Shown piece by piece: positions 23,483 through 61,626 of a DNA stretch of 64,000 bases; the stretch's first letter is position 1; each line of letters opens with the position of its first letter. The DNA lies in contig NZ_BSTR01000028.1 of the NCBI RefSeq assembly GCF_030269645.1, forward strand, positions 1 through 64,000, read 5' to 3'. Source of the stretch: Actinokineospora sp. NBRC 105648 (GTDB lineage Bacteria; Actinomycetota; Actinomycetes; Mycobacteriales; Pseudonocardiaceae). The notes below the pieces were generated by a model, which saw only the letters and a list, made by a program, of their open reading frames with translations, was not told the origin of the DNA and ran no database searches. The position numbers were made by a program, and so were the translations under genes.

Positions 23483-23621
23483 GCTCGATCTAGTGGACTC
23501 GCTTCGTGTGGGGGGAGAGTGCCGCTAAACTTGCCGTGGGTGGGGATGCCCTTACCCTGCCCTTTTCTCTCCACCGCGGTGCTCTAGGGGCCCCGCACGA
23601 AGCGAGTTCACTAGATCGAGC
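23483..23621 (+). repeat. Inverted-repeat element, type A, copy 1
   Basis: Outer arms of about 31 bases start GCTCGATCTAGTGG and end CACTAGATCGAGC. Inner arms are AGAGTGCCGC and GCGGTGCTCT, the centre holds TAAACTTGCC and GGATGCCCTT, and AGGGGCCCC joins inner to outer right arm. All four imperfect pairs (two outer, two inner) are G opposite T as read on this strand. It lies 191 bases past the sigma-CAP stop, on the same strand. Confidence 0.9.
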
Positions 23622-23634
23622 CCCATATCTTTTC

Positions 23635-23712
23635 CTCGGGCAGCCCATGCGATGGGTCGCCGCCGAGGTCGACCGTAGGTCGGTGTGCGGCACACCCCAC
23701 GAGCTGCCCGAG
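23635..23712. other. Nested palindromes between two inverted elements
   Basis: CTCGGGCAGC at 23635 pairs with GCTGCCCGAG ending at 23712. Inside are three small hairpins: CCCAT-GCG-ATGGG (23644), GACC-GTA-GGTC and GGTGTG-CGG-CACACC. The 78 bases can therefore fold as a four-way junction. It is not a tRNA (no T-loop, wrong stem length). It occupies the whole space between the element copies at 23483 and 23723. Confidence 0.5.
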
Positions 23713-23722
23713 TAAGAGCGGG

Positions 23723-23861
23723 GCTCGATTGGCTGGACTGCCTTCGCGTGGGGCCCCTAGGCGACCGCGTGGGGACAAAGCGTGGGGAGAAGGGCATCCC
23801 CACCACAGGTCAAGTTTAGCGGTCGCCTCCCCCCACACGAAGGCAGTCCACCCAATCGAGC
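23723..23861 (-). repeat. Inverted-repeat element, variant copy, reverse orientation
   Basis: Same layout as copy 1, read on the minus strand: arms GCTCGATTGGGTGGAC / GTCCAGCCAATCGAGC, inner arms AGGCGACCGC / GCGGTCGCCT, conserved CGCTAAACTTG and AGGGGCCCC. Inner-stem bases differ from copy 1 on both sides together. One outer pair is G opposite G, the only non-wobble mismatch I found in the family. It lies past the 3' end of tex, on the strand of tex. Confidence 0.85.
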
Positions 23862-24218
23862 ACAAACGTAACGGGTGTTGCGTACCAGCGGGGCCGGGAT
23901 CCTGTCGCCTTCCAGCGGGCGCGGAATTCGTTAGGTGTCAACGAGAGTGAGATTGCATTGCGCTGCAACAGAGGCAGAGTTGATCACGCTCGCTCTACCA
24001 CCAGCCAGCCGATCAGCCTGCCGTCCCCAAGCCGACATTCAGTTCGCCAGGCCACCGACTCCCCAGCCCGCGCCGGTCAGTCCCTCAGCGCGGTCTGTCG
24101 GGCTGCTCGGCTGAGCAGCCAGGTTAGCCACTCTCGCCCAGCCCAGCCCAGCCCAGCCCAGCCCAGCCCAGCCCGCGTTCAGTCACCCGCTCTTCCCGCA
24201 GTCTCCGCGCATTCGTTG
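23862..24218. other. Intergenic region downstream of tex with a pentanucleotide tandem repeat
   Basis: No gene is seen. A perfect 8-bp-arm hairpin (GGCTGCTC/GAGCAGCC) lies at 24101-24120 and could act at the end of tex transcription. A GCCCA tandem array (about 7.5 units) occupies 24136-24174. The first 40 bases resemble the left flank of other element copies. Confidence 0.5.
24136..24174. repeat. GCCCA pentanucleotide tandem repeat
   Basis: Seven to eight perfect direct copies of GCCCA in a row, between tex and the element pair. Such a tract is prone to slippage and could vary in length between strains. Confidence 0.85.
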
Positions 24219-26585
24219 CTATTCCTTGTATCCAGCCTTTCGCAAGGCATCTGCCAGTGAACCGCTAGCGGGTGCCTCCTTGCGGCCGCGCCCCTGTTGT
24301 CCGCCTCGCTGCTGTCCACCACCACCACCACCGCGCTGCTGCGAGGAACCACCCCTGCCACCCCGCTGCGGTTGCCCGCCTTCGCCCGGGGTCCCTGTGG
24401 GGATCTCGTCGTCCAAGCGCAGGGTCAGCGAGATGCGCTTGCGGGGGATGTCGATTTCCAGGACCTTCACCTTGACCACGTCGCCCGACTTCACGACGTC
24501 GCGGGGGTCCTTGACGAATGTGCGGGACAGCGCTGAGACGTGCACGAGGCCGTCCTGGTGGACGCCGATGTCCACGAAGGCCCCGAAGGCGGCGACGTTG
24601 GTGACGACGCCCTCCAGTGTCATGCCGGGGCGCAGGTCTGCCAGCTTCTCGACGCCGTCGGCGAAGGTGGCGGTCTTGAACGCTGGGCGGGGGTCGCGGC
24701 CGGGCTTTTCCAGCTCCGTCAGGATATCCGTGACCGTGGGGAGGCCGAAGGTCTCGTCGACGAAGTCCTGGGCTTGCAGGGTGCGCAGTTTGCCGGAGTT
24801 GCCGATCAGCGCGGGGAGTTCGCCGCCGGTGCGGGCGAGGATTCGGCGGACCACCGGGTAGGCCTCGGGGTGCACGCTGGAGGCGTCGAGCGGGTCGTCG
24901 CCCGCCGGGATGCGGAGGAATCCCGCGCACTGTTCGAAGGCCTTGGCGCCGAGTCGGGCGACGTCCTTGAGGCCCTTGCGCGTGCGGAAGGGGCCGTGTG
25001 CGTCGCGGTGGGCGACGATGTTCTCCGCCAGGCCCGCGCCGATGCCGGACACCCTGGTCAGCAGGGGTGCCGATGCCGTGTTCACGTCCACGCCGACGCC
25101 GTTCACGCAGTCCTCGACGACCGCGTCCAGGGAGCGCGAGAGCTTCACCTCGGACAGGTCGTGCTGGTACTGGCCGACGCCGATGGACTTCGGGTCGATC
25201 TTCACCAGTTCGGCCAGCGGGTCCTGCAGGCGCCTGGCGATCGACACTGCGCCGCGCAGGGAGACGTCCAGGCCGGGGAGTTCCTGGGTCGCGTAGGCCG
25301 ATGCCGAGTACACCGACGCGCCCGCCTCGGAGACCACGATCTTGGTGAGCTTGAGGTCGGCGCACTTCTTGATCAGCTCGATGGCGAGCTTGTCGGTCTC
25401 CCGGGACGCCGTGCCGTTGCCGATCGCGATCAGCTCGACCTTGTGCGCCGCCGCCAGCCTGGCCAGGGACACCAGGGCGTCGTCCCAGCGCTGCTGGGGC
25501 ACGTGCGGGTAGATCGTGTCGGTGGCGACCACCTTGCCGGTGGCGTCCACGACCGCCACCTTCACCCCGGTGCGGAAGCCCGGGTCCAGGCCCATGGTCG
25601 CGCGTGAGCCCGCGGGCGCCGCGAGGAGCAGGTCGCGCAGGTTCATCGCGAAGACCCGTACCGCCTCGTCCTCGGCCTCCTGGCGCAGCCGGGAGCGCAG
25701 GTCGATGCCGAGCCGGACCACGATGCGGGTGCGCCAGGCCCAGCGGACCACGTCGGAGAGCCAGCGGTCGGCGGGCCTGCCCTGGTCGTCGACGCCGAAC
25801 CGGTAGGCGATCCGCGCCTCGTACTCGCCGCGGGTGGTCGGGTCGGCCTCCGGGTCGGGGTCCAGGGTGAGGTCGAGGACCTCCTCCTTCTCGCCGCGGA
25901 ACATCGCCAGGATCCGGTGCGAGGGCAGCTTGCCGAACGGCTCGGAGAAGTCGAAGTAGTCGGCGAACTTCGCGCCGTCGGTCTCCTTGCCCTCGCGGAC
26001 CTTCGCGGCCAGCACGCCCTTGGTCCACATCCGCTCGCGCAGCTCGCCGATCAGGTCGGCGTCCTCGGCGAACCGCTCGACCAGGATCGACCGGGCGCCG
26101 TCGAGGGCCTCGGTGGCGTCGTTGACGCCCTTCTCGGCGTCGACGAACCCGGCCGCGACCGCGCGCGGGTCCAGCGTCGGGTCGCCGATCAGCCGGTCGG
26201 CGAGCGGCTCCAGGCCCGCCTCGCGGGCGATCTGCGCCTTGGTCCGCCGCTTGGGCTTGTACGGCAGGTAGATGTCCTCCAGCCGCGCCTTGGAGTCGGC
26301 GGCCATGATCTGCGCGGCGAGCGCGTCGTCGAGCTTGCCCTGCTCGCGGATCGAGTCGAGGACCGCGGCCCGGCGCTCCTCCAGCTCGCGCAGGTAGCGC
26401 AACCGCTCCTCGAGGATGCGCAGCTGCTCGTCGTCGAGCGTGCCGGTGGCCTCCTTGCGGTAGCGCGCGATGAACGGCACCGTCGCGCCGCCGTCGAGCA
26501 GGTCGACGGCCGCGGTCACCTGCCGCTCGCGCACCCCGAGCTCCTCGGCGATGCGCTGGTGGATCCCCTGTGCTGGCGCAGTCAT
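24219..26585 (-). CDS. tex: Tex-type S1 RNA-binding transcription accessory protein
   Basis: A 788-residue cytoplasmic nucleic-acid-binding protein. The N-terminal Tex helical region ([20 protein letters not shown]) is followed by the YqgF/RuvX-like nuclease fold ([17 protein letters not shown]), the HhH region ([21 protein letters not shown]) and a C-terminal S1 domain ([27 protein letters not shown] split over about 655-730). The tail is Gly/Gln/Arg-rich, an RGG-like extension beyond the S1 domain that may add RNA affinity. ATG 26585 has GGAAG upstream; a longer open frame upstream lacks homology. It stands alone on the minus strand. Confidence 0.95.
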
Positions 26586-26754
26586 CGGTCCCGCTTCCAC
26601 TTCTCGGTCACTTTCCGTTCCATTCTGGCGGAACCGGCGAGCACGTGGGCGCCCGACCCGCGACCCTGTGGACAACTCGCCCTGTGGACAACTCCCGGCA
26701 CGCGTCCGCCGGACGTGCGATAAAGGTCCCCACCCGAGCGGAACGGAGGAACCG

Positions 26755-27489
26755 ATGCGGATCGGCCTGTTCGTCACCTGCTTCAACGACACGCTGTTCC
26801 CCGCGTCGGCGCGCGCCGTGGTGCGGGTGCTGGAGCGGTTGGGCCACGAGGTGGTCTTCCCCCGGTCGCAGACCTGCTGCGGCCAGCTGCACTTCAACAC
26901 CGGCTACCAGCGCGAGTGCGTCCCGCTGGTGGCCAAGTTCGCCGCCGACTTCGCCGACCTCGACCACGTGGTGTCACCATCGGCGTCCTGCGTGGCCATG
27001 GTCCGCGAGCACCACCCCCGGGTCGCCGAGGTCGCCCGCGACCCGGGCCTGGCCAGGGCCGTCGCCGAGACCGCGCCCCGGGTCCGCGAGTTCACCGAGT
27101 TCCTGGTCGACGTCCTGGGCGTCACCGACGTGGGCGCAACCTTCGCGCACCGGGTCACCTACCACCCGACCTGCCACGGCCTGCGTGTCCTCGGCTTGGC
27201 CGACCGCCCCACCGCGCTGCTGCGCGCCGTCCGCGGCCTGCGCCTGCTGGACTTACCGGAGGCGACGCAGTGCTGCGGCTTCGGCGGCACCTTCGCCCTC
27301 AAGAACGCCGACACCTCGGTCGCCATGGGCGCGGACAAGGCCCGGCACGTGGTCGACACCGGCGCCGAGGTGCTGGCCGCGGTGGACAACTCCTGCCTGA
27401 TGCACGTCGGCGGCCTCCTCTCCCGCAACCGCTCGGCGGTGCGGGTCATGCACGTGGCCGAGATCCTGGCGAACGGAGCGGACGCGTGA
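26755..27489 (+). CDS. lutA: Lactate utilisation protein A (CCG-domain Fe-S oxidoreductase subunit)
   Basis: A 244-residue cytoplasmic subunit of the LutABC L-lactate oxidation complex. It contains two Cys-rich CCG domains: [11 protein letters not shown] with SPSASC in the first half, and YHPTCHGLR with [11 protein letters not shown] in the second. These ligate Fe-S clusters. ATG 26755 has a strong GGAGG five bases upstream. The end overlaps lutB by four bases (GTGA). The first gene of the operon, divergent from tex, with the promoter within 26586-26754. Confidence 0.92.
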
Positions 27490-28919
27490 GTGGAGTGTGG
27501 ATGGGCATGCCCGCCTTCCCCGAGGCCGCGCGCACCGCGCTGGCCGACGGGCAGCTGCGCGCCAACCTGCGCACGGCGACGGGCACGATCCGGGCGAAAC
27601 GCGCCGCCGTCGTCGCCGAGCGCGCTGACTGGGAGCAGCTGCGCGAGGCGGGCCGCGCCATCAAGGACCAGGCACTGCACGACCTCGACACCCACCTGCT
27701 CAGGCTGGAGGAGCAGGTCACCGCGGCCGGGGGAGTCGTGCACTGGGCCCGCGACGCCGCCGAGGCCAACCGGATCGTGGTCGGGCTCGTGCGCGCCGCG
27801 GCCGCCGACGAGGTGGTCAAGGTCAAGTCCATGGCCACCCAGGAGATCGAGCTCAACGAGGCACTGGCCGCCGCCGGGATCACCGCGCACGAGACCGACC
27901 TGGCCGAGCTGATCGTCCAACTGGGACACGACCGGCCGTCGCACATCCTGGTCCCGGCCATCCACCGCAACCGGTCCCAGATCCGCGACCTGTTCCAGCG
28001 CGAGATGCCCGACGCCCCACCGGGCCTCACCGACGACCCGGTCGCCCTCGCCGGCGCCGCCCGCGAGCACCTGCGCCGCAAGTTCCTCGCCGCCCGCGTC
28101 GCGATCTCCGGCGCGAACTTCGCGGTGGCCGAGACGGGCTCGCTCGTGGTGGTGGAGTCCGAGGGCAACGGCCGCATGTGCCTCACCCTGCCGGAGGTGC
28201 TGATCAGCGTCGTCGGCATCGAGAAGGTCATCCCCACCTGGCAAGACCTGGAGGTGATGCTCCAACTCCTCCCGCGCTCGGCCACCGGCGAGCGCATGAA
28301 CCCCTACACCACGATCTGGCGGGGCACCACCCCCGGCGACGGCCCCCGCGAGTTCCACCTGGTGCTGCTGGACAACGGCCGCACAGCCGCCCTGGCCGAC
28401 GAGATCGGCCGCGACGCCCTGCGCTGCATCCGCTGCTCGGCCTGCCTGAACGTCTGCCCCGTCTACGAACGCACCGGCGGCCACGCCTACGGCTCGGTCT
28501 ACCCCGGCCCCATCGGCGCCATCCTCACCCCCCAACTGAGGGGAGTGGACGCCGACCCGGTGGCCAAGAGCCTCCCCTACGCCTCCACCCTCTGCGGCGC
28601 CTGCTACGAGGTCTGCCCGGTCATGATCGACATACCGAAGGCCCTCGTCCACCTCCGCGCCAAGGTCGTGGACGCCAACCGCGCCAACCCATCCCCAGAA
28701 CGCACCGCCATGAAGGTGGCCGCCTGGATCTTCGCTCGCACCCGAAGGCTCGAACTGCTGCAGCGACTCACCGCCCGCGTCGCAAGCCTCCTGTTCCGCA
28801 AACCAACCATCACCCGCCTCCCACCCCCACTGTCCCGCTGGACCGAAACCCGCGACGCCCCCACCCCACCCCCAGAACCCTTCCGCGACTGGTGGTCCCG
28901 CACCCGAGAGGAGCCCTGA
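27486..28919 (+). CDS. lutB: Lactate utilisation iron-sulfur protein B
   Basis: A 477-residue electron-transfer subunit of LutABC. The N-terminal LUD domain (about 60-290, with ANFAVAETGSLVVVESEGN) is followed by two 4Fe-4S motifs, CIRCSACLNVCPVY and CGACYEVCPVMID, then a basic C-terminus. The GTG start overlaps the lutA stop. lutC begins three bases after the stop, so the three genes form a tight operon for oxidising L-lactate to pyruvate with electrons going to the respiratory chain. Confidence 0.94.
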   Translation: MSGVWMGMPAFPEAARTALADGQLRANLRTATGTIRAKRAAVVAERADWEQLREAGRAIKDQALHDLDTHLLRLEEQVTAAGGVVHWARDAAEANRIVVGLVRAAAADEVVKVKSMATQEIELNEALAAAGITAHETDLAELIVQLGHDRPSHILVPAIHRNRSQIRDLFQREMPDAPPGLTDDPVALAGAAREHLRRKFLAARVAISGANFAVAETGSLVVVESEGNGRMCLTLPEVLISVVGIEKVIPTWQDLEVMLQLLPRSATGERMNPYTTIWRGTTPGDGPREFHLVLLDNGRTAALADEIGRDALRCIRCSACLNVCPVYERTGGHAYGSVYPGPIGAILTPQLRGVDADPVAKSLPYASTLCGACYEVCPVMIDIPKALVHLRAKVVDANRANPSPERTAMKVAAWIFARTRRLELLQRLTARVASLLFRKPTITRLPPPLSRWTETRDAPTPPPEPFRDWWSRTREEP

Positions 28920-28922
28920 CCC

Positions 28923-29594
28923 GTGGACGCCAAGTCGGAAATACTCTCCCGCATCCGCACGGCCCTAGGCCCGGACCGCACCCCCGTCGACGTCCCCCGC
29001 ACCTACACCCGAACAACCCCCGAAACCGACGACATCCCAACCCTCTTCGCCACCCGCGCCGCCGACTACCAAGCCCGAGTCCGCCGAGTCACGGCCCAAC
29101 CCACCCTGGCCGGTCCGGGCGGGCCGACCGCGCTCATCCCCTTCGACCCGGTCCCGGTAGCAGCAGCCATCACCGACCTGCTCAAGACAACCCACGTCCG
29201 ATCGCTGGTCGTTCCCGCGGACTTCCCCGAAGCCTTGCTGCCCCAAGACAACTACGTCATCCGGCGAGACGACCCACCGCTCCCAGTAGCCGACCTCGAC
29301 ACCACCGACGCGGTCCTCACCGGCTGCGCCGCCGCCATAGCCGAAACCGGCACCATCATCCTCAACGCCGGTCCACTACAGGGCCGCCGAGCCCTGACCC
29401 TCATCCCAGACACCCACCTCTGCCTGGTGCGAGCGGACCAGATAGTCGGCACCGTCCCAGAAGCATTGTCCACTGTGGATGCAACCGCTCCGCTGACCTG
29501 GATCAGCGGCCCCTCGGCAACCAGCGACATAGAACTGCACCGAGTAGAAGGAGTCCACGGCCCAAGAACCCTCCTAATCCTGATCATCGACTAG
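28923..29594 (+). CDS. lutC: Lactate utilisation protein C (LUD domain)
   Basis: A 223-residue single LUD-domain protein. Late conserved segments CAAAIAETGTIILNAGP and LCLVRADQIVGTVPEAL match LutC/YkgG. It follows lutB by three bases with GAGG before the GTG start. Third subunit of the lactate oxidation complex. Confidence 0.93.
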   Translation: MDAKSEILSRIRTALGPDRTPVDVPRTYTRTTPETDDIPTLFATRAADYQARVRRVTAQPTLAGPGGPTALIPFDPVPVAAAITDLLKTTHVRSLVVPADFPEALLPQDNYVIRRDDPPLPVADLDTTDAVLTGCAAAIAETGTIILNAGPLQGRRALTLIPDTHLCLVRADQIVGTVPEALSTVDATAPLTWISGPSATSDIELHRVEGVHGPRTLLILIID

Positions 29595-29745
29595 CCGCCC
29601 GCACCGAGCCGCCCACGCTGAGCTGCCCGAACCGGGCCGCCCGAACCGAGCCGGCCACACTGAACCGCCCGAACTGAGCCGTCGCACCGAGCCGCCCGAA
29701 GTGGGTCGCCCGAACTGAGCCGCCACCACCAAACCACCAAAGGTT
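29595..29745. repeat. Degenerate ~17-bp tandem repeats after lutC
   Basis: Repeated GAGCCGCCCGAAC/CTGA-like words (about eight imperfect copies) follow the lutC stop directly. No gene is seen. The tract ends about 40 bases before the type B element. Confidence 0.6.
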
Positions 29746-29786
29746 CGAAGCCTCGGTCCCACCAACCGAACTCGCGCAACAAACCT

Positions 29787-29928
29787 GCTGGATTGGGTGG
29801 ACCTGCTTTGTTCGGGGAGAAAAGAGGCGCTAGCCTGGCCCAGGCGTGGGTGATCCCTTCCCCACCCGCTTCACCCCGGCGCCTCTTTTCTTAGGGGCCC
29901 CGAACAAAGCAGGTCCACCCAATCCAGC
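29787..29928 (+). repeat. Inverted-repeat element, type B, copy 1
   Basis: Outer arms start GCTGGATTGGGTGGACCTGC and end CCACCCAATCCAGC and pair perfectly over about 31 bases. Inner arms are GAAAAGAGGCGC and GCGCCTCTTTTC. CGCTA on the left and TAGGGGCCCCG on the right are kept from type A while the stems differ on both sides. It lies 193 bases past lutC on the same strand. Confidence 0.9.
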
Positions 29929-30221
29929 ACCCCCACCCACCCGCGCCCCCCACCAGGGCAGGCCGCCAGCCGAAGACGACCCAAGCCCAGCGGGACCCAG
30001 CCCAGCAACACGGAAGCCCAGCAACACGAAACACGCAAGCCCAACAGGCTGCCCCAACAGGCACCCCACTCAGCCCAATCCGCTCCACCCACAGTGGACA
30101 CCACTAGACCAACCGGATCGCACCCACCACCCTCTCCGGTGGTCCCGCCCCGCACCCATTGTCCCGCCGCCCGTCCACGGCGAACCATTCCGCCCGACAT
30201 CCCAGCCCGATCGGAGTGCCC
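29929..30221. other. Low-complexity Pro-coding-like spacer before the VWA gene
   Basis: C-rich spacer with CCCAGCAACAC repeats (30001-30030) and CCCAACAGGC repeats (30040-30062). The frames through it look like background. GGAG at 30213 is the ribosome binding site of the next gene. Confidence 0.45.
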
Positions 30222-32084
30222 GTGCGGAAAACCCGAAGAACACCCCTGATCCTCACCGCCGCCATCCTCAGCTCCCTCGCCCTGACCACCCCCGCGACCG
30301 CCGACCCGGGCGTCACACCGTCCACTGTGGACCTCACGCTCGCGCCGGGGGCCACCGCCTCGGTGGGCAAGACCGTGCGCACGTCCGAGGTCCCGCAGAA
30401 CCCCGACCTCGTCCTGCTCGCCGACACCACCGGCAGCATGGGCGGCGCCATCGGCAACGTGCGGGCCAACGCGGGTGCCATCACCGCCGACGTGCTGGCC
30501 GCCCAGCCCACCGCCCGGTTCGGGGTCGCCGAGTTCAAGGACATCGCCGACGCCATCCCGTTCCGGGTCAACCAGCAGCTCACCGGCGACCCCGGCGCGG
30601 TCCAGGCGGGCATCAACCAGTGGGCGGCGGGCGGTGGCGGCGACTTCCCCGAGGACCAGATCAACGCCCTCTACCGGATCGCCACCGGCGACATCGCGTT
30701 CCGGCCGGGCAGCACCCGGATCGTCGCCATCTTCGGTGACGCGCCGTCGCACGACCCCAGTGGTGGGCACACCCTCGCCGCCGCCATCGCCGCCCTCAAC
30801 GCCGCGAGCGTGCGCGTGATCGCGGTCAACGTCGGCAACCTCGACTCCGCCGGTCAGGCCACCGCGCTGGTCAACGCCACCGGCGGCGTCCTGCTCAACA
30901 ACGTCCCGTCGAACCAGGTCTCCCAGGCCATCCTCGACGGCATCCGCGCCATCCAGGTCACGGTCGAGCCGGTCGTCACCACCTGCGCCCCGCAACTGAC
31001 CCTCACCAACAGCCCGACGTCGGTCACGGTCACCAGTGGTGACGCCGCCACCTTCGCCGAGACCGTCGCGGTCAGCCCCTCCGCCGCCCCCGGCGACTAC
31101 ACCTGCCAGGTCGACTACCTCGTCGGCGGCGTGTCCCAGGGCTTCGTCGAGACCACCACCGTCCGGGTGCTGGGCCTCTCCGTCAACGACGTCACCCTGG
31201 TCGAGCCCGACTCCGGCCCGGCCACCGCGACCTTCACCGTCTCGCTCACCGGCCCCTCGCCGAGCCCGGTCACCGTCGACTTCGTCACGGCCAACGCCTC
31301 CGCGACCGCCCCCGCCGACTACACCGCCGCCACCGGCAGCCTCACCTTCGCCCCCGGCGAGCTGAGCAGGCCCGTGGCCGTCACCGTCCTCGGCGACACC
31401 CTCGACGAGCTCACCGAGAACTTCCGCGTCACCCTCGCCAACGCGACCGGCGCGGGAATCCTGCGCGCCACCGGCACGGGCACGATCACCGACGGGGACC
31501 GCGACGGCGGCTTCACCTGCGCGGCCACGGCCGCGGCGGTCCTGGGCAGCACGGCCGCCGCCGCCAACCCGCCCAACAACCCGTGCGCCACCGACAGCAA
31601 GCTCGTCCCGACGGTCAGCCTGCTCGGCGTCCGGGTCGACGGTCTCTCCGGCAGCACCGACCTGTTCCCGGCCAACCAGGAGACCGCGCCCGGCCCGGGC
31701 GACGGCGCGCAGTCCGAGGCGTCGGTGAACGCGGCGACGGTCAGCCTGCTCGGCCTGGCGAACATCCAGCTCGGCGACATCCACGCCGAGGCCGGGCTCA
31801 CCTGCGTGGCAGGACCGGGCGGCCTGACCCCGGTGTCGCACAGCAGTTCCAGCGTCGCCACGCTGCGGATCAACGGCGCCCCGATCACCGTCGGCACCCG
31901 GCCGCTGACCATCCCGCTGGTGGTCGGCTCGCTGCGGCTCAACAGCAGCACCGAGGTCAACGGCCAGCTCGTCCGCCAGGCCGTGGTCCTGGACACCCCG
32001 CTGACCCGGGTGGTGCTCGCCGAGGTCAAGGTCGGCCTGCACGGCACCGCGACCCACCCGGCGGGCAATCCCTGCCGCCGCTGA
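30222..32084 (+). CDS. Secreted VWA / Calx-beta / choice-of-anchor-P-like protein
   Basis: A 620-residue exported protein. Signal peptide (LILTAAILSSLALTTPATA), then a von Willebrand A domain whose metal site begins DTTGSMG (Asp68) at about 60-260. A Cys-containing Ig-like segment follows, then a Calx-beta repeat (about 325-425, with DYTAATGSLTFAPGE and ELTENFRVTL). The C-terminal part (about 430-620) resembles choice-of-anchor-P proteins: NGAPITVGTRPLTIPL and LRLNSSTEVNGQL. No membrane anchor or sorting motif is seen at the C-terminus. GTG 30222 has CGGAG six bases upstream. Two shorter choice-of-anchor-P-like genes lie at 45723 and 48589. Confidence 0.8.
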   Translation: MRKTRRTPLILTAAILSSLALTTPATADPGVTPSTVDLTLAPGATASVGKTVRTSEVPQNPDLVLLADTTGSMGGAIGNVRANAGAITADVLAAQPTARFGVAEFKDIADAIPFRVNQQLTGDPGAVQAGINQWAAGGGGDFPEDQINALYRIATGDIAFRPGSTRIVAIFGDAPSHDPSGGHTLAAAIAALNAASVRVIAVNVGNLDSAGQATALVNATGGVLLNNVPSNQVSQAILDGIRAIQVTVEPVVTTCAPQLTLTNSPTSVTVTSGDAATFAETVAVSPSAAPGDYTCQVDYLVGGVSQGFVETTTVRVLGLSVNDVTLVEPDSGPATATFTVSLTGPSPSPVTVDFVTANASATAPADYTAATGSLTFAPGELSRPVAVTVLGDTLDELTENFRVTLANATGAGILRATGTGTITDGDRDGGFTCAATAAAVLGSTAAAANPPNNPCATDSKLVPTVSLLGVRVDGLSGSTDLFPANQETAPGPGDGAQSEASVNAATVSLLGLANIQLGDIHAEAGLTCVAGPGGLTPVSHSSSSVATLRINGAPITVGTRPLTIPLVVGSLRLNSSTEVNGQLVRQAVVLDTPLTRVVLAEVKVGLHGTATHPAGNPCRR

Positions 32085-32113
32085 TCAGCGGGAAAGCAGT
32101 ACAGCCGGAAAGA

Positions 32114-32153
32114 AGAAGGGCCCCGCGCAGGCGAACCGGCGCGGGGCCCTTCT
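32114..32153. terminator. Bidirectional terminator between the VWA and cold-shock genes
   Basis: GAAGGGCCCCGCGC at 32115-32128 pairs with GCGCGGGGCCCTTC at 32139-32152, flanked by A and T runs on both sides. It separates convergent genes and can serve both. Confidence 0.88.
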
Positions 32154-32163
32154 CAGGTCATGC

Positions 32164-32922: not shown

Positions 32923-32931
32923 GCCCGGAGG

Positions 32932-33542: not shown

Positions 33543-33550
33543 AGGCGGAC

Positions 33551-39823: not shown

Positions 39824-42212
<2,389 letters not shown>

Positions 42213-52588: not shown

Positions 52589-52595
52589 GCCACGA

Positions 52596-53004: not shown

Positions 53005-53561
53005 AACCGTGGAAGCGCAAGGGCGAGAAGGTGCTGGCCGACATCGACCAGCAGGAGGCGGCCGTCCTGCGCGGCCTGGTCTCCCAGATCGACGACATGC
53101 TGCGGGCCCGGGTCGAGGACGCGCCGCAGGACGAGCTGGCCGAGCTGACCGGGATCCGCACCGGTCCCTCCACCTCGCCCGACGACCCGATCCTGTCCCG
53201 GCTGCTGCCGGACTTCCACCGCCTCGACGACGACAACCCGAGCAAGGCCGACCTCGACTCGGCCGCCATGCTGCGCTCGCTGCACGAGCCGACGCTGCTC
53301 GACCTCAAGACCGGCGTCGCGGGCGTGGTGCTCGACACCTGCCCGATGTACGGCGGCGGCATCCGGCTCACCCTGGAGCAGGCCGACGCGTGGCTCTCCG
53401 CGCTCAACGACGTGCGGCTGGCGCTCGGCACCGCGATCGAGGTCACCGAGGACATGCCCGACGAGCTGCCCGAGGACGACCCGCGCAGCCCGCACCTGGC
53501 CGTCTACCACTGGCTCACCTGGGTGCAGGAGTCGCTGGTCCAGGCGCTGTCCGCGCCGTGA
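53001..53561 (+). CDS. DUF2017 family protein
   Basis: A 186-residue protein always found beside clpS in actinobacteria. It reads [21 protein letters not shown] near the start, [17 protein letters not shown] in the middle and [25 protein letters not shown] near the end. It is the counterpart of Rv1332. Coupled by GTGA overlaps to clpS upstream and to the P1 peptidase gene downstream. Function unknown. Confidence 0.87.
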
Positions 53562-54505
53562 ACGCGATCACCGACGTCGGCGGGGTGCTCGTCGGGCACC
53601 ACCACCGGGTCGGTGACGGCTGGGCGACCGGCACCACGGTCGTCCTGCTGCCGGAAGGCACGGTCGGCGGGGTCGACGCCCGCGGCGGCGCGCCGGGTAC
53701 CCGGGAGACCGATCTCTTGGCGCCGGAGAACCTCGTCGACCGCGTGGATGCTGTTTGCCTGTCCGGCGGCAGCGCGTACGGGTTGGCTGCCGCAGACGGG
53801 GTGATGCGGTGGCTCGGTGAGCACAACCGCGGCTACCGCGTCGGTCCGGAGCCGCACGAGGTGGTGCCGATCGTGCCCGCCGCCGTCCTGTTCGACCTGC
53901 CGCGCGGCGCCTGGGGCAACCGCCCGGACGCCGAGTTCGGCTATGCCGCGTGCGCCGCCGCCACCGGGGGTCCGGTCGCCGAGGGCAGCGTCGGCGCGGG
54001 TACAGGCGCCCGGACGGGTTCACTCAAAGGGGGGATCGGCACGGCGAGTGCCCGGGTGGGTGACGTCACGATCGGGGTGATCGCCGCAGTCAACGCCCGT
54101 GGTGAGGCCGTCGACCTGGGTACCGGCGCCTTCTGGGCCACCGGCACGCCAGGGGAGCTGCCACCGCCACCAGGGTGGGCGGTAGAGCTGGGCGAGCGGT
54201 CGAGCGACCTCAACACCACCATCGGCGTTGTCGCTACCGACGCCCTCTTGACCAAGTCCCAGTGCAAGCGGTTGGCCATGTCCGCCCAAGATGGACTGGC
54301 ACGCGCTATCCGCCCCGCACACTCCCTCTTCGACGGTGACACCGTCTTCGCCGCCGCGACCGGTGCGCGTCCGGTGAACGGTTTGGGCGAGCTGGACACC
54401 CTCTACATGACCGCCGCGGACGTGTTCTCCCGCGCCGTCGCGCGCGGTGTCCTGGCCGCCACCACCGTGGGTGACCTGCGCTCATACCGCGACGCGTGGT
54501 CCTGA
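53558..54505 (+). CDS. P1 (DmpA/NylC-type) family autoprocessed peptidase
   Basis: A 315-residue N-terminal-nucleophile hydrolase. GSLKGGIGTASARVG and the later DLNTTIGVVATDALLTKSQC match this family; the Asn-Thr bond in DLNTTIG is the expected self-cleavage site with Thr as nucleophile, as in NylC. The early DVGGVLVGHHHR and CLSGGSAYGLAAADGVM are also conserved. It corresponds to Rv1333, which precedes mec in mycobacteria. GTG 53558 overlaps the DUF2017 stop. Natural substrate unknown; aminopeptidase or amide hydrolase. Confidence 0.9.
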   Translation: MNAITDVGGVLVGHHHRVGDGWATGTTVVLLPEGTVGGVDARGGAPGTRETDLLAPENLVDRVDAVCLSGGSAYGLAAADGVMRWLGEHNRGYRVGPEPHEVVPIVPAAVLFDLPRGAWGNRPDAEFGYAACAAATGGPVAEGSVGAGTGARTGSLKGGIGTASARVGDVTIGVIAAVNARGEAVDLGTGAFWATGTPGELPPPPGWAVELGERSSDLNTTIGVVATDALLTKSQCKRLAMSAQDGLARAIRPAHSLFDGDTVFAAATGARPVNGLGELDTLYMTAADVFSRAVARGVLAATTVGDLRSYRDAWS

Positions 54506-54546
54506 CGTGCGACCTCTCACAGACTGGGAGGGGCGCACTCACCCAG

Positions 54547-54552
54547 TAGGAT
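54547..54552 (+). promoter_or_regulatory. -10 box TAGGAT, leaderless start of mec at 54560
   Basis: The box ends 8 bases before GTG 54560 and overlaps an upstream ATG (54551) that is therefore unlikely to be used. Confidence 0.5.
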
Positions 54553-54559
54553 GGGTTCC

Positions 54560-55012
54560 GTGCTGACGATCCGCCGGGACCTCGTGGAAGCGATGGTGGC
54601 CCACGCCCGCCGCGACCACCCCGACGAGGCGTGCGGCGTGCTCGCGGGCCCCGAGGGGTCCGACCGCCCCGAGCGCTTCATCCCGATGCTCAACGCCGCG
54701 CGGTCGCCCACGTTCTACGAGTTCGACTCCGCGGACCTGTTGAAGTTGTACCGCGAGATGGCCGCGAACGACGAGGTGCCGGTGGTCATCTACCACTCGC
54801 ACACGGCCACCGAGGCCTACCCGTCGCGCACCGACGCGAAGATCGCGCAGGAGCCGTACGCGCACTACGTGCTGATCTCCACCCGCGAGCCGGACAGCCA
54901 CGAGCTGCGCTCGTTCCGGATCGTCGAGGGCGTCATCACCGAGGAGCCGGTCGAGGTCGTCGAGTCCTACCGGTTCGCCCACACGGGTCCGGACGACGTC
55001 CCCGAGCAGTGA
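54560..55012 (+). CDS. mec: Mec-type JAMM metalloprotease of the CysO cysteine pathway
   Basis: A 150-residue zinc hydrolase. The JAMM residues are Glu in DEACGVLAGP and His-X-His-(10)-Asp in YHSHTATEAYPSRTDAK. In M. tuberculosis Mec (Rv1334) cleaves cysteine off the CysO C-terminus. The CysO encoded here ends GGAR, so Mec may also trim the final two residues before thiocarboxylation. GTG 54560 is chosen from the -10 box. cysO follows by 79 bases. Confidence 0.93.
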   Translation: MLTIRRDLVEAMVAHARRDHPDEACGVLAGPEGSDRPERFIPMLNAARSPTFYEFDSADLLKLYREMAANDEVPVVIYHSHTATEAYPSRTDAKIAQEPYAHYVLISTREPDSHELRSFRIVEGVITEEPVEVVESYRFAHTGPDDVPEQ

Positions 55013-56359
<1,347 letters not shown>

Positions 56360-56377
56360 CCACCGGACTGGTGCGGC

Positions 56378-56383
56378 TAAGTT
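56378..56383 (+). promoter_or_regulatory. -10 box TAAGTT, leaderless start at 56390
   Basis: The box ends 7 bases before GTG 56390. Confidence 0.5.
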
Positions 56384-56389
56384 GTGCCC

Positions 56390-56851
56390 GTGATCGAGGT
56401 ACACCGGACCGGGCGCATCCCGGCACCTGTCGAACAGGTGTGGTCGGTGGTGTCGGACGCCCGACGCGCATCGGACTGGTTCAGCTTCGCCGAGCGCACG
56501 GACGTGCTCTCCGGCGCGGGCAAGGGCGAGAAGCGCCGCCAGTACGGGCGTTGGGGGCGACGGACCTCGGAGATCGACCAAGAGGTCATCGAGTTCGCGC
56601 CCCCGCTCTCGATCGCCTGGAAGCACACGGCTGAGCGGATGGACGGGAAACCCGCGCCGGTCTTCGCCTCGGCATCGGTGTTCCGGATCGACCTGGAGGC
56701 CGATGGTGAGGAGACGGTGGTGCACTTGCGGACTCAGCAGTTGCCCGCTGATGGGTTGAAGCGGATCGCCATGCGGGTGTTCGGGAACTCGGATATCTCG
56801 CGGCGGATGGAGGAGTCGCTGATCCGGCTCGTTCGCGCTGTCTCTTCTTGA
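56390..56851 (+). CDS. SRPBCC-family (START-like) protein
   Basis: A 153-residue helix-grip protein. It opens VIEVHRTGRIPAPVEQVWSV and has DWFSFAERTDVLSG and WKHTAERMDG, as in polyketide cyclase/START-like SRPBCC domains that bind hydrophobic ligands. It has its own leaderless promoter and is inserted between cysM and the rhomboid gene, which are adjacent in M. tuberculosis. Function unknown. Confidence 0.83.
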   Translation: MIEVHRTGRIPAPVEQVWSVVSDARRASDWFSFAERTDVLSGAGKGEKRRQYGRWGRRTSEIDQEVIEFAPPLSIAWKHTAERMDGKPAPVFASASVFRIDLEADGEETVVHLRTQQLPADGLKRIAMRVFGNSDISRRMEESLIRLVRAVSS

Positions 56852-56922
56852 TGCTGCTGCTGTGGTTGGCGTCTTGTTGTCGTCTTTTGGTTGCCGTCTT
56901 CGTTGCCCGAGTTACAAGCGGG

Positions 56923-57062
56923 GCTCGATCTAGTGAACTCACTTCGCGCGGGGCCCCTAGAGCACCGCGGTGGCGAAAAAAGGGCGGGTGAAGGGCATCC
57001 CCACCACACGGCAAGTTTAGCGGTACTCCTCCCCCACACGAAGCGAGTCCACTAGATCGAGC
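56923..57062 (-). repeat. Inverted-repeat element, type A, reverse orientation
   Basis: Read on the minus strand: arms GCTCGATCTAGTGG / CACTAGATCGAGC, inner arms GGAGTACCGC / GCGGTGCTCT, centre TAAACTTGCC and a T6 run. Four outer and two inner positions are imperfect, and all six are G opposite T on this strand. A flank repeat (GTTGCCGTCTTCGTTGCCC as written on the plus strand) lies at its plus-strand left side. Confidence 0.92.
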
Positions 57063-57175
57063 ATCCGTAGCGGGTGTTGCGTTCCAGCGTGGTCGGCCTC
57101 ACCGCTGCGGTTTGGTGGGCGCTAGGCAGGTGGGTTGAAGTTCTCGAATCGCTTTTTCTCGGCCCCCACTGACGT

Positions 57176-57317
57176 GCTGGATTGGGTGGAGTGGCTTTGT
57201 TTGGGGAGAAAAGAGGCGCTAGCCTGGCTCCGGCGTGGGTGATCCCTTTCCCACCCGCTTCACCCCGGCGCCTCTTTTCTTAGGGGCCCCGAACAAAGCC
57301 ACTCCACCCAATCCAGC
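57176..57317 (+). repeat. Inverted-repeat element, type B, copy 2
   Basis: Same layout as 29787, but the middle of the outer stem is GGAGTGGC / GCCACTCC instead of GGACCTGC / GCAGGTCC: four bases changed, each with a compensating change on the other arm. One imperfect outer pair is T opposite G. Confidence 0.92.
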
Positions 57318-57329
57318 CCTGCGCCGGAA

Positions 57330-57670
57330 CCCGCCCACCCCACCGGGCACCCAGTCCCTGCCCCCGCCAGAACCCAACCGCGCCACCAGCGCAAGTCCGC
57401 TTCCGTCGCAACCCAGCCACCCCACCGGGCACCCAGACCCCCATCCCCGCCAAAACCCAACCACTCCACCAGCGCCAAGTCCGCTTCCGCCGGAACCAGG
57501 ACCACCCACTGGGCACCCAGACCCCGCCCCAGGGAGAACCCAACCCCGCCACCGGGACCAAGTCCGCTTCCGCCGGAACCCAGCCAGCCCACCAAGCACC
57601 CAGGCCCCGACCCAACCACCCCACCGGCACCAAGTCCGGCTCCACCGCACCCCAGCCACCCCGAGGCCAC
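57330..57670. repeat. Four degenerate ~83-bp tandem units
   Basis: GGGCACCCAG recurs at 57345, 57427, 57511 and (as AAGCACCCAG) 57594, and AAGTCCGCTTCCG recurs between. The spacing is about 83 bases. The tract follows the type B element directly. The plus-strand frame through it is Pro-rich and has no ribosome binding site, so I do not call it a gene. Confidence 0.75.
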
Positions 57671-57739
57671 CCCCGCCCGCAAGCCCCAGACCAGGGCCGA
57701 ATCAGGGTCAACCCCGATCCACCCCACCCCCCAACCACG

Positions 57740-57745
57740 TACGCT
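57740..57745 (+). promoter_or_regulatory. -10 box TACGCT, leaderless start at 57752
   Basis: The box ends 7 bases before GTG 57752. Confidence 0.5.
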
Positions 57746-57751
57746 CGACCC

Positions 57752-58393
57752 GTGAGCACCCAACCCGTCAAGCGTGACGCGGCCAGGATCCTGCCGCCCA
57801 GGCCCGCGCAGGCGGCCATCGTGGTGGCCGCGTTCACCGGTCTGCTCTACCTGGTCGAGATCATCGACGCGATCCTGCCCGCCAACCTGGAGCAGAACGG
57901 CATCGTGCCGCGCAGCCTGGGTGGGCTCGACGGGATCCTCTGGGCCCCGCTGCTGCACGGCGGCTGGGACCACCTCATCGGCAACACGGTGCCGCTGCTG
58001 GTGTTCGCGTTCCTCGCGATGGCCAACGGGCTGTCCCAGTGGGTCGCGGTGACCGCGACCATCTGGCTGGTCAGCGGGATCGGTGTCTGGCTCACCGGGG
58101 ACGGCGGCTCGGTCACCATCGGTGCCTCCGGGCTGTGCTTCGGCTGGTTGCTGTTCCTGCTGGTGCGCGGCCTGTTCAACCGCAGCCTCCTGCAGCTCGG
58201 GCTCGCCGTCGTCCTGCTCCTGTACTGGGGCACCATGCTCTTCGGGGTGCTCCCCGGCGACCCGCGCATCTCCTGGCAGGGCCACCTGTTCGGCGCGCTC
58301 GGTGGTGTTCTCGCCGCCTGGCTGGTCTCGCTCGGCAACCGCGCCACCGCGCCCGGGCCGAGTCCGAGTCCGGGTGCCGGTCCCATCCTGTGA
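57752..58393 (+). CDS. Rhomboid-family intramembrane serine protease
   Basis: A 213-residue six-helix protein. The catalytic Ser lies in [12 protein letters not shown] (GxSG) and the His in [15 protein letters not shown]. The early [10 protein letters not shown] holds the conserved His-Asn region. It corresponds to Rv1337. The stop overlaps murI by four bases. Substrate unknown. Confidence 0.93.
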
Positions 58394-59190
58394 GTCCGGA
58401 CGCGCCGATCGGGATCTTCGACTCGGGAGTCGGGGGGTTGACCGTCGCCCGGTCCATCCTCGACCAGCTCCCGCACGAGCGGCTGCGCTACGTGGGCGAC
58501 ACCGCCAACAACCCTTACGGACCAAGGCCGATCGCGCAGGTCCGTGAGCTCACCCTGGCCATCACCGACGAGCTGGTCGGCAGCGGCGTCAAGATGCTGG
58601 TGCTGGCCTGCAACACCGCGTCGGCCGCGTGCCTGCGGGACGCGCGTGAGCGCTACGACATCCCGGTGGTCGAGGTCGTGGTGCCCGCCGCCCGCCGGGC
58701 CGCGTCGGCCACCCGGTCCGGGCGGGTTGGGGTGATCGGCACCGCGGGCACCATCCGCTCGCGCGCCTACGACGACGCCCTGGCGGCGGCGCCCGGGGTG
58801 ACGCTCACCGGTTCGGCGTGCCCGAGGTTCGTCGACTTCGTGGAGCGCGGGATCACCTCGGGCCGCCAGATCCTCGGCCTGGCCCAGACCTACCTCGAAC
58901 CGCTGCAACAGGCCGCTGTGGACACGGTTGTGCTCGGCTGCACGCACTACCCGCTGCTGACCGGTGTCATCCAGGTCGTGCTGGGGCCGGATGTCACGCT
59001 GGTGTCCAGTGCGGAGGAGTGCGCCAAGGACGTCTACCGGGTGCTCACCGAGACCGGTCTGCTCGCCGAGGACGAGGGCGAGCCGCGGCACGAGTTCGGC
59101 GCCACCGGGCCCGCGGAACCGTTCCACCGGCTGGCGCACCGCTTCCTCGGCCTCAACCCGTCGAGTTTCGCCTCACCCGCCCTAGGGTGA
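58390..59190 (+). CDS. murI: Glutamate racemase
   Basis: A 266-residue enzyme that supplies D-glutamate for peptidoglycan. It starts with [13 protein letters not shown], and the two catalytic Cys lie in [11 protein letters not shown] and [14 protein letters not shown] 58390 is coupled to the rhomboid stop. An essential gene in most bacteria. Confidence 0.96.
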
Positions 59191-59227
59191 TCGTCTTCTC
59201 GATACCCGCTGTGACAGGCTGTCCGGT

Positions 59228-59998
59228 GTGCTGTTGACCGTTCTCGGCTGTTCCGGAAGCGTTCCCGGACCCAACGCCCCGTCATCCGGTTACCTGCTCG
59301 AGGCGGACGGCTTCCTGCTCGGTGTCGAGCTCGGCAGCGGCACCTTCGCGGCGCTGCAGGCGGTCCGCGACCCGTTCGCGCTGGACGCGGTGCTGTTCTC
59401 GCACCTGCACGCCGACCACTGCGCGGATTTCGCCTCCCTGACGGTGTGGCGCCGCTACCACCCGGCCCCGTCCCGCGACCCGCGGCTGCACCGCCTGCCG
59501 GTGTACGCGCCGCGGGAGGCCCCCACCCGGTTCGCGGGCGCATACGCGACCAGCGATGCCGAGCGCGCTGTCACGGATCTGTCCGATGTGTTCGACTTCC
59601 GTCCACTGGCACCCGGGCCATTCCACATCGGACCGTTCGAGGTGGTGGCGACGACCGCCGCGCACCCGTGCGAGTCCTACAGCTTCCGGATCACCCACGG
59701 CGGCAGCACTTTCCTCTACACCGGCGACACCGGCGCGTGCGCCCCGGTGACCGAACTGGCGAAGGGCGCGCGGACCATCCTCGCCGAGGCGTCCTGGACC
59801 CACGACGCCGCGGTCGTCCCCGACCTGCACCTGTCCGGCCGCGAGGCGGGCGAGCTCGCCGCGGCCGCGGCCGCCGCCCGGCTGCTGCTCACCCACGTTC
59901 CGCCGTGGACCGACCCGGCCGAGGTCCTCGCCGAGGCCCGCGCGGTCTTCGACGGCGAGGTCGTGCTGGTCGAGCAGGGCGCGGTCTACGAGGTCTAG
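59228..59998 (+). CDS. MBL-fold phosphodiesterase-like hydrolase (Rv1339 type)
   Basis: A 256-residue metallo-beta-lactamase-fold protein. The zinc motif is [11 protein letters not shown], with [10 protein letters not shown] and a late LLLTHVPPW providing further ligands. It is the counterpart by position and sequence of M. tuberculosis Rv1339, reported as an atypical class II cyclic-AMP phosphodiesterase. GTG 59228 follows murI by 37 bases. Function in this organism is inferred from that homologue. Confidence 0.88.
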
Positions 59999-60008
59999 CG
60001 GCGGGCTC

Positions 60009-60014
60009 TAGGCT
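60009..60014 (+). promoter_or_regulatory. -10 box TAGGCT, leaderless start of rph at 60022
   Basis: The box ends 8 bases before GTG 60022. Confidence 0.5.
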
Positions 60015-60021
60015 GGCCGTC

Positions 60022-60783
60022 GTGGCGAGAAGCGACGGCAGGACAGACGGCCAGCTCAGGGACATCAAGCTCACCCGCGGCTACCAGGACTGGCCAGCGG
60101 GCTCGGTGCTGGTGGAGTTCGGCCGCACCAGGGTGCTCTGCGCGGCCAGCGTCACCGAGGGCGTGCCCCGGTGGCGCAAGGGTTCGGGCCTCGGCTGGGT
60201 GACCGCCGAGTACGCGATGCTGCCCTCGGCGACCAACACCCGCGGCGAGCGCGAGTCCATCAAGGGCCGCGTCGGCGGCCGCACGCACGAGATCAGCAGG
60301 CTGATCGGCCGGTCGCTGCGCGCCTGCATCGACCTGGCCGCCCTGGGCGAGAACACCATCCACCTCGACTGCGACGTCATCCAGGCCGACGGCGGCACCC
60401 GCACCGCGGCCATCACCGGCGCCTACGTGGCCCTGGCCGACGCGGTGACCTACCTGGCCGCGGCGGGCAAGCTGGCCGACCCCCAGCCGCTGTCCTGCGC
60501 GGTCTCCGCGGTCAGCGTCGGCGTGGTCGGCGGCCGGGTCCGCCTGGACCTGCCGTACGAGGAGGACGCCCGCGCCGAGGTCGACATGAACGTCGTGGCG
60601 ACCGACGCGGGCACCCTGATCGAGGTCCAGGGCACCGGCGAGGGCGCCACCTTCGCCCGATCCACCCTCGACGCCATGCTCGACCTGGCCATGGCGGGCT
60701 GCGCCGAGCTGAACCGGATCCAGGCCGCCGCCCTGGCCCTGCCCTACCCCGGCACCCTGCCCGAACCCAAGGCGGGCAAGTGA
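60022..60783 (+). CDS. rph: Ribonuclease PH
   Basis: A 253-residue phosphorolytic 3' exonuclease that trims tRNA ends. Motifs: [19 protein letters not shown], the basic loop [20 protein letters not shown], and [20 protein letters not shown]. Length and sequence are typical. The stop overlaps rdgB by one base. Confidence 0.96.
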
Positions 60784-61382
60784 TGACCCGGGTCCTGCTG
60801 GCGAGCCGCAACGCCAAGAAGCTGGCCGAGCTCCGCCGCATCCTGGCCGCGGCGGCGGTGTCGAACGTCGAGATCGTCGGCCTGGACGACGTCCCGGCCT
60901 TCCCGGACGCCCCGGAGACCGGCGCCACGTTCGAGGAGAACGCCCTCGCCAAGGCCCGCGACGGCGCCCGGGAGACCGGCTTGCCCACGATCGCCGACGA
61001 CTCGGGCATCGCGATCGACGCCCTCAACGGGATGCCCGGCGTGCTCTCGGCCCGCTGGTCCGGCAGGCACGGCGACGACCAGGCGAACCTGGACCTGGTC
61101 CTGGCCCAGCTGAACGACGTCCCGGATGAGCGCCGGGGCGGCGGGTTCGTCTGCGCGATCGCACTCGTGCAGCCGGACGGCGCGGAGATCACCCTTCGTG
61201 CCGACTGGCGTGGGACTGTTGTCCGGGAACCCAGCGGCACCAATGGGTTCGGCTACGACCCGATCTTCGTGCCGGAGGGGTATTCGGTGACTTCGGCTGA
61301 GCTGAGCCCGGGCGAGAAGGATGCGGTCTCACATCGGGGCCAGGCGTTGGCGTTGCTCCTGCCGCACTTGAAGGCTCTGTAG
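60783..61382 (+). CDS. rdgB: Non-canonical purine NTP pyrophosphatase (dITP/XTP)
   Basis: A 199-residue Ham1/RdgB enzyme that removes dITP and XTP from the nucleotide pool. It has VLLASRNAKKLAELRRIL, ATFEENALAKARDGA, IADDSGIAIDALNGMPGVLSARW and GTNGFGYDPIFVPEG. It closes the conserved block that starts at clpS. Confidence 0.96.
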   Translation: MTRVLLASRNAKKLAELRRILAAAAVSNVEIVGLDDVPAFPDAPETGATFEENALAKARDGARETGLPTIADDSGIAIDALNGMPGVLSARWSGRHGDDQANLDLVLAQLNDVPDERRGGGFVCAIALVQPDGAEITLRADWRGTVVREPSGTNGFGYDPIFVPEGYSVTSAELSPGEKDAVSHRGQALALLLPHLKAL

Positions 61383-61486
61383 CCCTACCCCGCTGGTACC
61401 CCCACCACCAGACCGCAGCCGACGGCCGCCCCACCAGACCGCAGCGGATAGGCCGACCCCGCTGGAACGCAAGTCCCGCTACGGAT
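61383..61486. repeat. Left-flank repeats of the element at 61487
   Basis: CCCGCTGGTACC, two AGACCGCAGC words and GACCCCGCTGGAACGCAAG precede the element, as they do before 23483. The region also forms the 3' flank of rdgB. Confidence 0.6.
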
Positions 61487-61626
61487 GCTCGATCTGGTGG
61501 ACTCGCTTCGTGTGGGGGGAGAGCACCGCTAAACTTGCCGGTGGTGGGGAATGCCCTTCACCCGCCCTTTTTTCACCACCGCGGTGCTCTAGGGGCCCCG
61601 CGCGAAGTGAGTTCACTAGATCGAGC
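61487..61626 (+). repeat. Inverted-repeat element, type A, copy 3
   Basis: Arms GCTCGATCTGGTGG / CACTAGATCGAGC; inner arms AGAGCACCGC / GCGGTGCTCT are perfect. Five outer positions are imperfect and all five are G opposite T on the plus strand, the highest number in the family. The centre is identical to the copy at 39824. It lies 104 bases past rdgB on the same strand. Confidence 0.92.

Follow-up and report, generated by a model that had tools for sequence, protein, structure and literature searches.

The first 64,000 nucleotides of contig NZ_BSTR01000028.1 of Actinokineospora sp. NBRC 105648 (the window, by which we mean this whole stretch) carry seven full copies and a half copy of a protein-free palindromic repeat. 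We read these repeats as a non-autonomous, miniature mobile family that probably spreads via a single-stranded form of its + strand. That the repeat is self-spreading is, in our judgment, very likely; selection for + strand folding at the spreading step is likely; and for the form that spreads we lean toward DNA rather than RNA. The family, its fold, the covariation of its stems, a strand bias among the mismatches that copies share and the turnover of copies in one species pair come directly from computation. Beyond these we infer mobility, a single-stranded intermediate and the nature of that intermediate (DNA or RNA).

A two-stem fold supported by covariation

A type B copy on the + strand (29787–29928), the outer arms of which are perfectly complementary, illustrates the fold. 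The 31-nt 5′ arm of its outer stem, P1 (29787–29817), contains a conserved TTTG and has GGGG at its end, and is followed by the 14-nt 5′ strand of the inner stem, P2 (29818–29831). At the end of P2 lies TAGCCT (29831–29836), a −10-like motif of the form TAnnnT. The 3′ strand of P2 (29878–29891), an unpaired TAGGGG bulge between P2 and P1 (29892–29897) and the 3′ arm of P1, with CCCC at its start (29898–29928), complete the + strand element. Repeat length across the family is ~140–150 nt. Identical copies were counted once, and collection required a recognisable AGGGGCC-like junction; 245 of the 252 distinct copies so obtained could be parsed. P1 is 31–32 bp in 189 of the 245 (overall range 17–37), with mostly GGGG at the inner end of the left arm and CCCC at that of the right, and P2 is 9–15 bp in 242. 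After P1 come 0–3 nt, P2, TAnnnT, a loop that contains a T-run and a small hairpin, the 3′ strand of P2, TAGGGG and the right arm of P1. The letters of P2 depend on the species, being AGAAAAGAGGCGC in the own genome, ACGGCACCCG in A. diospyrosa (G015) and AGGCCATCCC in G144, with a complementary partner each time. Across genera, too, the architecture is the same and the stems are different. This agrees with the first-pass annotation, made from the letters of the window, which had described one architecture kept while the stem letters change, in at least three stem versions; we recognise type A, type B and further variants.

Covariation was assessed in an alignment of 60 diverse sequences from 22 genomes, drawn from the parsed copies, using an average-product-corrected G-test, with 60 null alignments evolved along a tree as the reference. 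Significance at E≤0.05 was reached by 25 of the 2,775 column pairs, and all 25 are P1 or P2 pairs, with none elsewhere. When the proposed pairs were tested alone, 30 of 39 passed. The first-pass annotation had staked its case on statistically supported covariation, which is present and confined to the two stems. A covariance model, R1, holds P1 only, P2 having been left unplaced by RNAalifold.

Strand bias, turnover and distribution of copies

On the + strand, the P1 mismatches of the 245 copies comprise 360 G-T or T-G and 17 A-C or C-A. A double-stranded process would yield both equally. Tallied once per genome, position and type, mismatches common to at least two sampled copies number 36 G-T wobbles, 0 A-C and 7 other, and those found in one sampled copy 20, 17 and 34, respectively (wobble against A-C, Fisher p = 1.4e-6). 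When the comparison is restricted to the nine genomes giving at least five copies, the shared counts are 33/0/7 and the single ones 15/13/20 (p = 5.7e-6). The strand test rests on P1, as the wobble counts for P2 are biased by a parser that ranked wobble over A-C (shared: 27 wobble, 0 A-C, 4 other; single: 33, 5 and 3). Because shared mismatches are biased toward wobble and single ones are not, single copies appear to decay freely, with spread limited to copies whose + strand folds. In our reading, single copies decay neutrally, and a filter acting when copies spread would require a + strand able to fold, whether as RNA or as DNA. The family's own mutations thereby split two questions that are usually merged, namely what is needed for a copy to be retained (nothing visible) and what is needed for it to spread (a foldable + strand), and the comparison of shared with single mismatches offers a general, cheap, sequence-only test for single-stranded propagation. 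An effect of gene context on the mismatches was considered and dropped: the antisense single changes are 8 A-C and 1 wobble, and two decayed G005 copies account for 6 of the 8.

Turnover can be followed in G014 and G010, which are closer to each other than any other two genomes of the genus sample (94% in tex) and have 111 and 13 R1 matches, respectively. From the best-scoring matches we took 14 G014 regions; one locus without the element (L288) was excluded and two of the remaining 13 anchors had no ortholog, leaving 11 orthologous intergenic regions with a G014 copy. In these regions, G010 has one intact copy, two point-mutated copies and, at or near the corresponding place, one internally deleted copy; in a further region the copy is cut to its first 45 nt, in another there is a possible 23-nt 3′ remnant, and at five of the 11 no trace of a copy was found in G010. 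Copies 3′ of tex vary in number and orientation, having been seen in 5 of 16 genus genomes (two in G000, the own genome, and one each in G015, G007, G011 and G004) and in both orientations; the G004 copy was recognised by eye, and G003 was covered by 164 bp of downstream sequence. Taken together, the G010 losses and the variable tex copies suggest that single copies are not host-maintained. Solo or truncated outer arms occur in G000 on C1 at 82356, 261319, 424, 257044 and 257108, two of them in tandem directly before a full copy; they may be copy debris or abortive events.

The own genome is 8.4 Mb in 149 contigs, many of which bear copies. The junction pattern AGGGGCCCC-n11-15-TYCRCYNNATC is found at 270 sites there, and the same pattern gives 197 sites in G005, 180 in G015, 63 in G013, 54 in G011, 37 in G009, 31 in G004, 23 in G001, 17 in G002 and one each in G003 and G007. 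It is thus present in 11 of 16 Actinokineospora genomes and has no match in the other five; the reversed pattern, used as a control, has no match in any of the 16. In G005, a closed genome, the junctions are split evenly between forward (98) and reverse (99) strands. A longer junction pattern matched at least 69 stretches in a public genome collection, and among the matches listed all were from Actinokineospora, in six named species. In those 69 stretches, 69 of the 72 matches to the palindrome-blind pattern lie inside a palindrome in which 20 or more of 28 arm positions pair, and three do not. R1 found matches in 15 of the 16 genus genomes (all except G012), from 13 to at least 150 apiece. 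At E≤0.001, R1 matched 30 of 200 genomes of the family Pseudonocardiaceae, 20 of them outside the genus, for 10 of 46 genera in all. Ten of these 20 were inspected at a relaxed threshold (18 of 24 arm pairs), and a long palindrome was seen in 10 of 10, the copy in G214 being decayed. At class level, with eight candidates per genome scored, R1 matches were found in 2 of 394 genomes, both Actinokineospora, suggesting a low false-positive rate although few candidates per genome were scored. The decayed G214 copy (L267), from another genus, has a stem like the A. iranica (G013) type, for which transfer between genera is a possible explanation. In L265, L266, L270, L271 and L273, from two other genera, a common T-C mismatch occurs at one P1 position, beside TTTTG.

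In the window, all seven full copies are imperfect palindromes, located where the first-pass annotation had placed them and 139–142 nt each; their outer arms are 31–32 nt with 84–100% complementarity. Type A copies lie at 23483–23621, 39824–39962 and 61487–61626 on the + strand and, inverted, at 56923–57062 on the − strand; a type A variant, also inverted, is at 23723–23861 (−). Besides the type B copy described above, another is at 57176–57317 (+). The half copy that had been placed at 174 is real and is a lone 3′ arm with coordinates 176–206 (+), showing a single mismatch to the reference arm and followed by the type A right flank. The TAGGGG-CCCC junction, which had been described as fixed on the right side, is there in five of the seven copies; in the inverted copies at 23723 and 56923 it appears as GGGGCCCCTA on the left. 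The copies encode no protein, as had been stated, and every window copy is intergenic. Gene boundaries were taken from an in-house codon-usage gene caller. The copies at 23483 and 23723 lie between a + gene ending at 23291 and the − gene tex (24219; identified by Pfam), and according to the gene calls the other window copies come after 29594, 39641, 56851 and 61382. The annotation's failure to recognise a named family is matched by Rfam, which gave 0 matches in the window at the gathering score. At E≤1, in 12 loci, there were three matches to two miRNA hairpin models, all far under gathering and one of them (MIR1858) on the element.

The copies at 23483 and 23723 are the left and right members of a composite made of a + copy, a 101–102 bp spacer and an inverted copy, an arrangement seen in four places among the stretches examined. 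G005 has intergenic arrays at 3.10, 3.22 and 3.39 Mb, in which three copies pointing the same way, ~240–270 bp apart, precede one or two copies that are inverted and of another type. Tandem units of ~26 bp (CCCGCTGGAACGCAAC...) pile up beside type A copies, for example in the left flank at 23180–23480 of the window, and beside composites, and fragments of the type A right flank recur near many copies. When 464,000 bases (the window, C1 1–340000 and C2 1–60000) were scanned de novo for palindromes, 23 hits were returned, of which 20 belong to this family, two to a second repeat family and one is an intragenic inexact inverted repeat. A reversed sequence is no control for such a scan, since a reversed palindrome is still a palindrome; the valid control is the reversed junction pattern. 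The second palindromic repeat, unrelated to the first, is ~168 bp with CTAG ends (CCTAGGCGCTGTCC...) and was found via a shared motif in three places in 864 kb of the own genome: 34623–34791 of the window, C1 at ~269904–270071 and C2 at ~222587.

Proposed mobilisation and alternative readings

In the mechanism that we propose, the + strand would go single and fold, forming a long P1 that ends in GGGG/CCCC and a P2 with free letters. On its 3′ side the fold would further hold the TAGGGG bulge, and a third, small hairpin would carry a T-run. Most likely, a trans-acting enzyme would recognise this fold plus a few fixed letters; none was found with the PF01797, PF00078 and PF04986 profiles in the 16 genus genomes. 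Copies that lose the fold would cease to spread, persisting as intergenic debris until they decay or are deleted. Among the options offered by the first-pass annotation, this corresponds to a single-stranded mobile element, the one favoured by the strand bias and by the G014/G010 turnover. The large copy numbers, in versions specific to each genome, also speak for a spreading family. Reverse transcriptase (PF00078) occurs in 3 of the 16 genomes, and the own genome has three matches above the cut-off (E 1.4e-15 to 2.6e-8), which leaves an RNA route open there. Y2 transposase (PF04986) was found in 0 of the 16 genus genomes, a result that is uninformative because it was also found in 0 of 14 control genomes. 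Well-studied bacterial palindromic repeats are linked to a tyrosine transposase or to mRNA ends, and the question raised here is which enzyme moves or copies a repeat when most of its carriers show neither Y1 transposase nor reverse transcriptase.

Several observations weigh against this proposal. Y1 transposase (PF01797) was found in 2 of the 16 genus genomes, the own one not among them, while 5 of 14 control genomes were positive. Reverse transcriptase was not found in 13 of the 16, 12 of which carry the repeat; it is this absence that tilts us toward a DNA form. An exact direct repeat of at least 4 nt right at both ends, as a target-site duplication would leave, was found in 0 of 240 copies. 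No clean empty site was found, so that an insertion event has not been caught, and several of the G010 sites are G010 losses rather than G014 gains. A larger element bounded by the arms was not found in 1.26 Mb (the window, 800 kb of G000 and 400 kb of G005; arms with at most 8 mismatches). Conserved flanks occur on either side of type A copies, and the G014 copies share a conserved leader, so that the moving unit may exceed the hairpin. On the side of the fold, 9 of the 39 proposed pairs are unsupported, four of these being nearly invariant, and the P1 and P2 registers were set via complementarity in copies gathered via palindromy, which favours covariation; this collection bias is offset by the 69 of 72 palindrome-blind matches that are palindromic. 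Finally, the single-copy status of a mismatch holds within the sampled copies, not entire genomes. The search for an arm-bounded element listed 11 solo arms, none of them bounding an autonomous one; four of the five in G005 turned out to be two further full copies, both among the junction-pattern sites of that genome.

A possible but less probable reading takes the repeat as a folded single-strand promoter or priming site, like the single-strand origins (sso) of plasmids and Frpo. The P1+P2 duplex of the single + strand would then bear a TTTG in P1 that resembles a −35 box and, where P2 borders the loop, a −10-like TAnnnT, and RNA polymerase would make a short RNA, stop at the hairpin P3 with its T-run and prime second-strand synthesis. 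In rolling-circle plasmid sso and in F's Frpo, the folded strand is described as a promoter for a short RNA (PMC4595007, PMC5703833, PMC9849209); known sso are characterised as folded, promoter-recognised and orientation-specific (PMC4595007, PMC5703833), and Frpo as rebuilding −35 and −10 boxes within a stem-loop (PMC9849209). Of 50 representatives, 40 have TAnnnT in a window of 15 nt placed at the P2 border, compared with an average of 2.7 and at most 8 after shuffling and with 2 in the mirror window. A T-run of at least 3 occupies the loop's 3′ half in 44 of the 50 (14.3 on average and at most 22 after shuffling) and its 5′ half in 6. The TTT of the 5′ arm is retained in 48–52 of 60 sequences despite variable neighbouring pairs. 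P2, which would be the promoter spacer, has free letters and required pairing, and the covariation and + strand wobble bias would be compatible with folding of one strand. Other features fit less well: representatives of G009, G008, G003 and G007 (8 in total) lack a perfect TAnnnT, the −35 match is weak, spacing is no evidence since scoring admitted only spacers of 15–20 and preferred 17, and the invariant GGGG and TAGGGG are left unaccounted for. Nor was a rolling-circle replicon with the repeat found, with 0 matches in plasmids (type B query), phages (type A query) and viral contigs (pattern), one query each for a family with species-specific stems. Rather than a true rival to the mobile repeat, the promoter may be its functional part. 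More tentative still is the idea that the repeats are dispersed, portable, self-spreading sso-like single-strand promoters in which the covarying inner stem is the promoter spacer. If this is true, each copy would be switchable only while its strand is single, at hundreds of sites on the chromosomes of one genus.

Gene context bears on a further alternative, that of structured RNAs at mRNA 3′ ends (a terminator, an RNase III site or a 3′ shield) under host selection, which we consider unlikely. Convergent genes flank 125 of the 245 distinct copies and divergent genes only 10; another 24 are at the edge of a contig or locus, and 0 are within genes. The background of C1 gaps >250 bp is 14 divergent, 12 convergent and 7 co-directional. 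This placement would suit an mRNA 3′-end role, as would the tolerance of RNA folding for G-U, and transcription within mRNAs is reported for 84 of 165 and for 62 of 155 Bacillus cereus repeats (PMC3446304). However, copies beside co-directional genes are found in either orientation (52 sense, 34 antisense), single-copy mismatches have no strand bias, orthologous copies have decayed in G010, and the copies downstream of tex vary in presence, number and orientation. Insertion away from promoters or loss near promoters explains the placement, and a sense-only 3′ function does not fit it. The 3′-end processing or termination suggested in the first-pass annotation is therefore not supported as the main role, given the sense and antisense counts and the unbiased single-copy changes; a free-standing structured RNA is possible. 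Least likely of all is an ordinary miniature inverted-repeat transposable element (MITE), moved by double-stranded cut-and-paste by a DDE transposase and palindromic merely through its inverted ends, a reading with which the 31–32 nt terminal inverted repeats (a feature of DDE-type MITEs), the intergenic sites and the many near-identical copies agree, but which is at odds with the lack of target-site duplications, with an inner stem and asymmetric motifs conserved between genera and with a strand-specific G-T tolerance that has no place in a double-stranded mechanism. Shorter direct repeats abutting both ends measure 2 nt in 13 and 3 nt in 5 of the 240 copies. An offset scan, taking the best six per group, gave as its strongest signal 3 nt at offsets 11/4 (18 vs. 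6.7 expected) and near the ends 3 nt at offsets 2/2 (8 vs. 1.6), both in the 66 copies from named species; the latter eight are mostly shared flanks or misplaced ends.

Comparison with known repeats and single-strand origins

Searches of the open-licence full-text literature in PMC found no description of such a repeat in Actinokineospora or Pseudonocardiaceae, in agreement with the earlier remark that the family is apparently undescribed; where an Actinokineospora genome paper uses the word, "palindromic" refers to CRISPR (PMC6273641). The mobile repeat that we propose shares several features with REPINs and REP doublets with their RAYT, which are described as miniature, non-autonomous, palindromic intergenic DNA often found between convergent genes, with frequent pairing in opposite orientation, compensatory hairpin changes and genome-specific versions (PMC3116915, PMC3733652). 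Unlike REP, the repeat has the GTAG tag in 0 of 243 copies and CGTC in 5 of 243 (from −8 to +4 of either foot). As for RAYT, 14 of the 16 genus genomes, including the own one, gave no Y1 transposase, and in place of the two short REPs of a REPIN there is one long hairpin of ~140 nt. It works like a REPIN or other MITE-like repeat but fails the REP tag and RAYT tests.

In Bacillus cereus, the intergenic repeats bcr1–bcr3 are described as MITE-like, and bcr10 and bcr18 as predicted functional RNAs with conserved secondary structure (PMC3446304). These too are intergenic repeats, from another bacterial group, the comparison being one of descriptions rather than of bcr1 length, sequence or ends. 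ERIC, NEMIS and BOX are palindromic or stem-loop intergenic repeats of ~100–170 bp that encode no protein. They differ by description from the present family in that a strand-specific, cross-genus fold with freely changing stems is not known from them. The enterobacterial RU-1 repeat is given as 127 bp (PMC2759123). A survey of bacterial stem-loop sequences reports 92 families in 40 genomes, repeated, mostly intergenic and sharing a common fold (PMC2267715), and the present family is like these in being a repeated intergenic sequence with a common fold.

The likeness to sso (ssoA is ~160 nt) and Frpo lies in one folding strand with promoter-like boxes, which here are −35- and −10-like only (PMC4595007, PMC5703833, PMC9849209). 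ssoA-type origins and Frpo are described as orientation-specific (PMC4595007, PMC5703833, PMC9849209), and the + strand bias read from the repeat's sequence would fit this. The described sso and Frpo sit on plasmids or a conjugative element, with two Frpo on F (PMC4595007, PMC5703833, PMC9849209); here there are hundreds of chromosomal copies with putative activity. The repeat would have the same parts in the same order as sso and Frpo, a correspondence that is suggestive, not proof.

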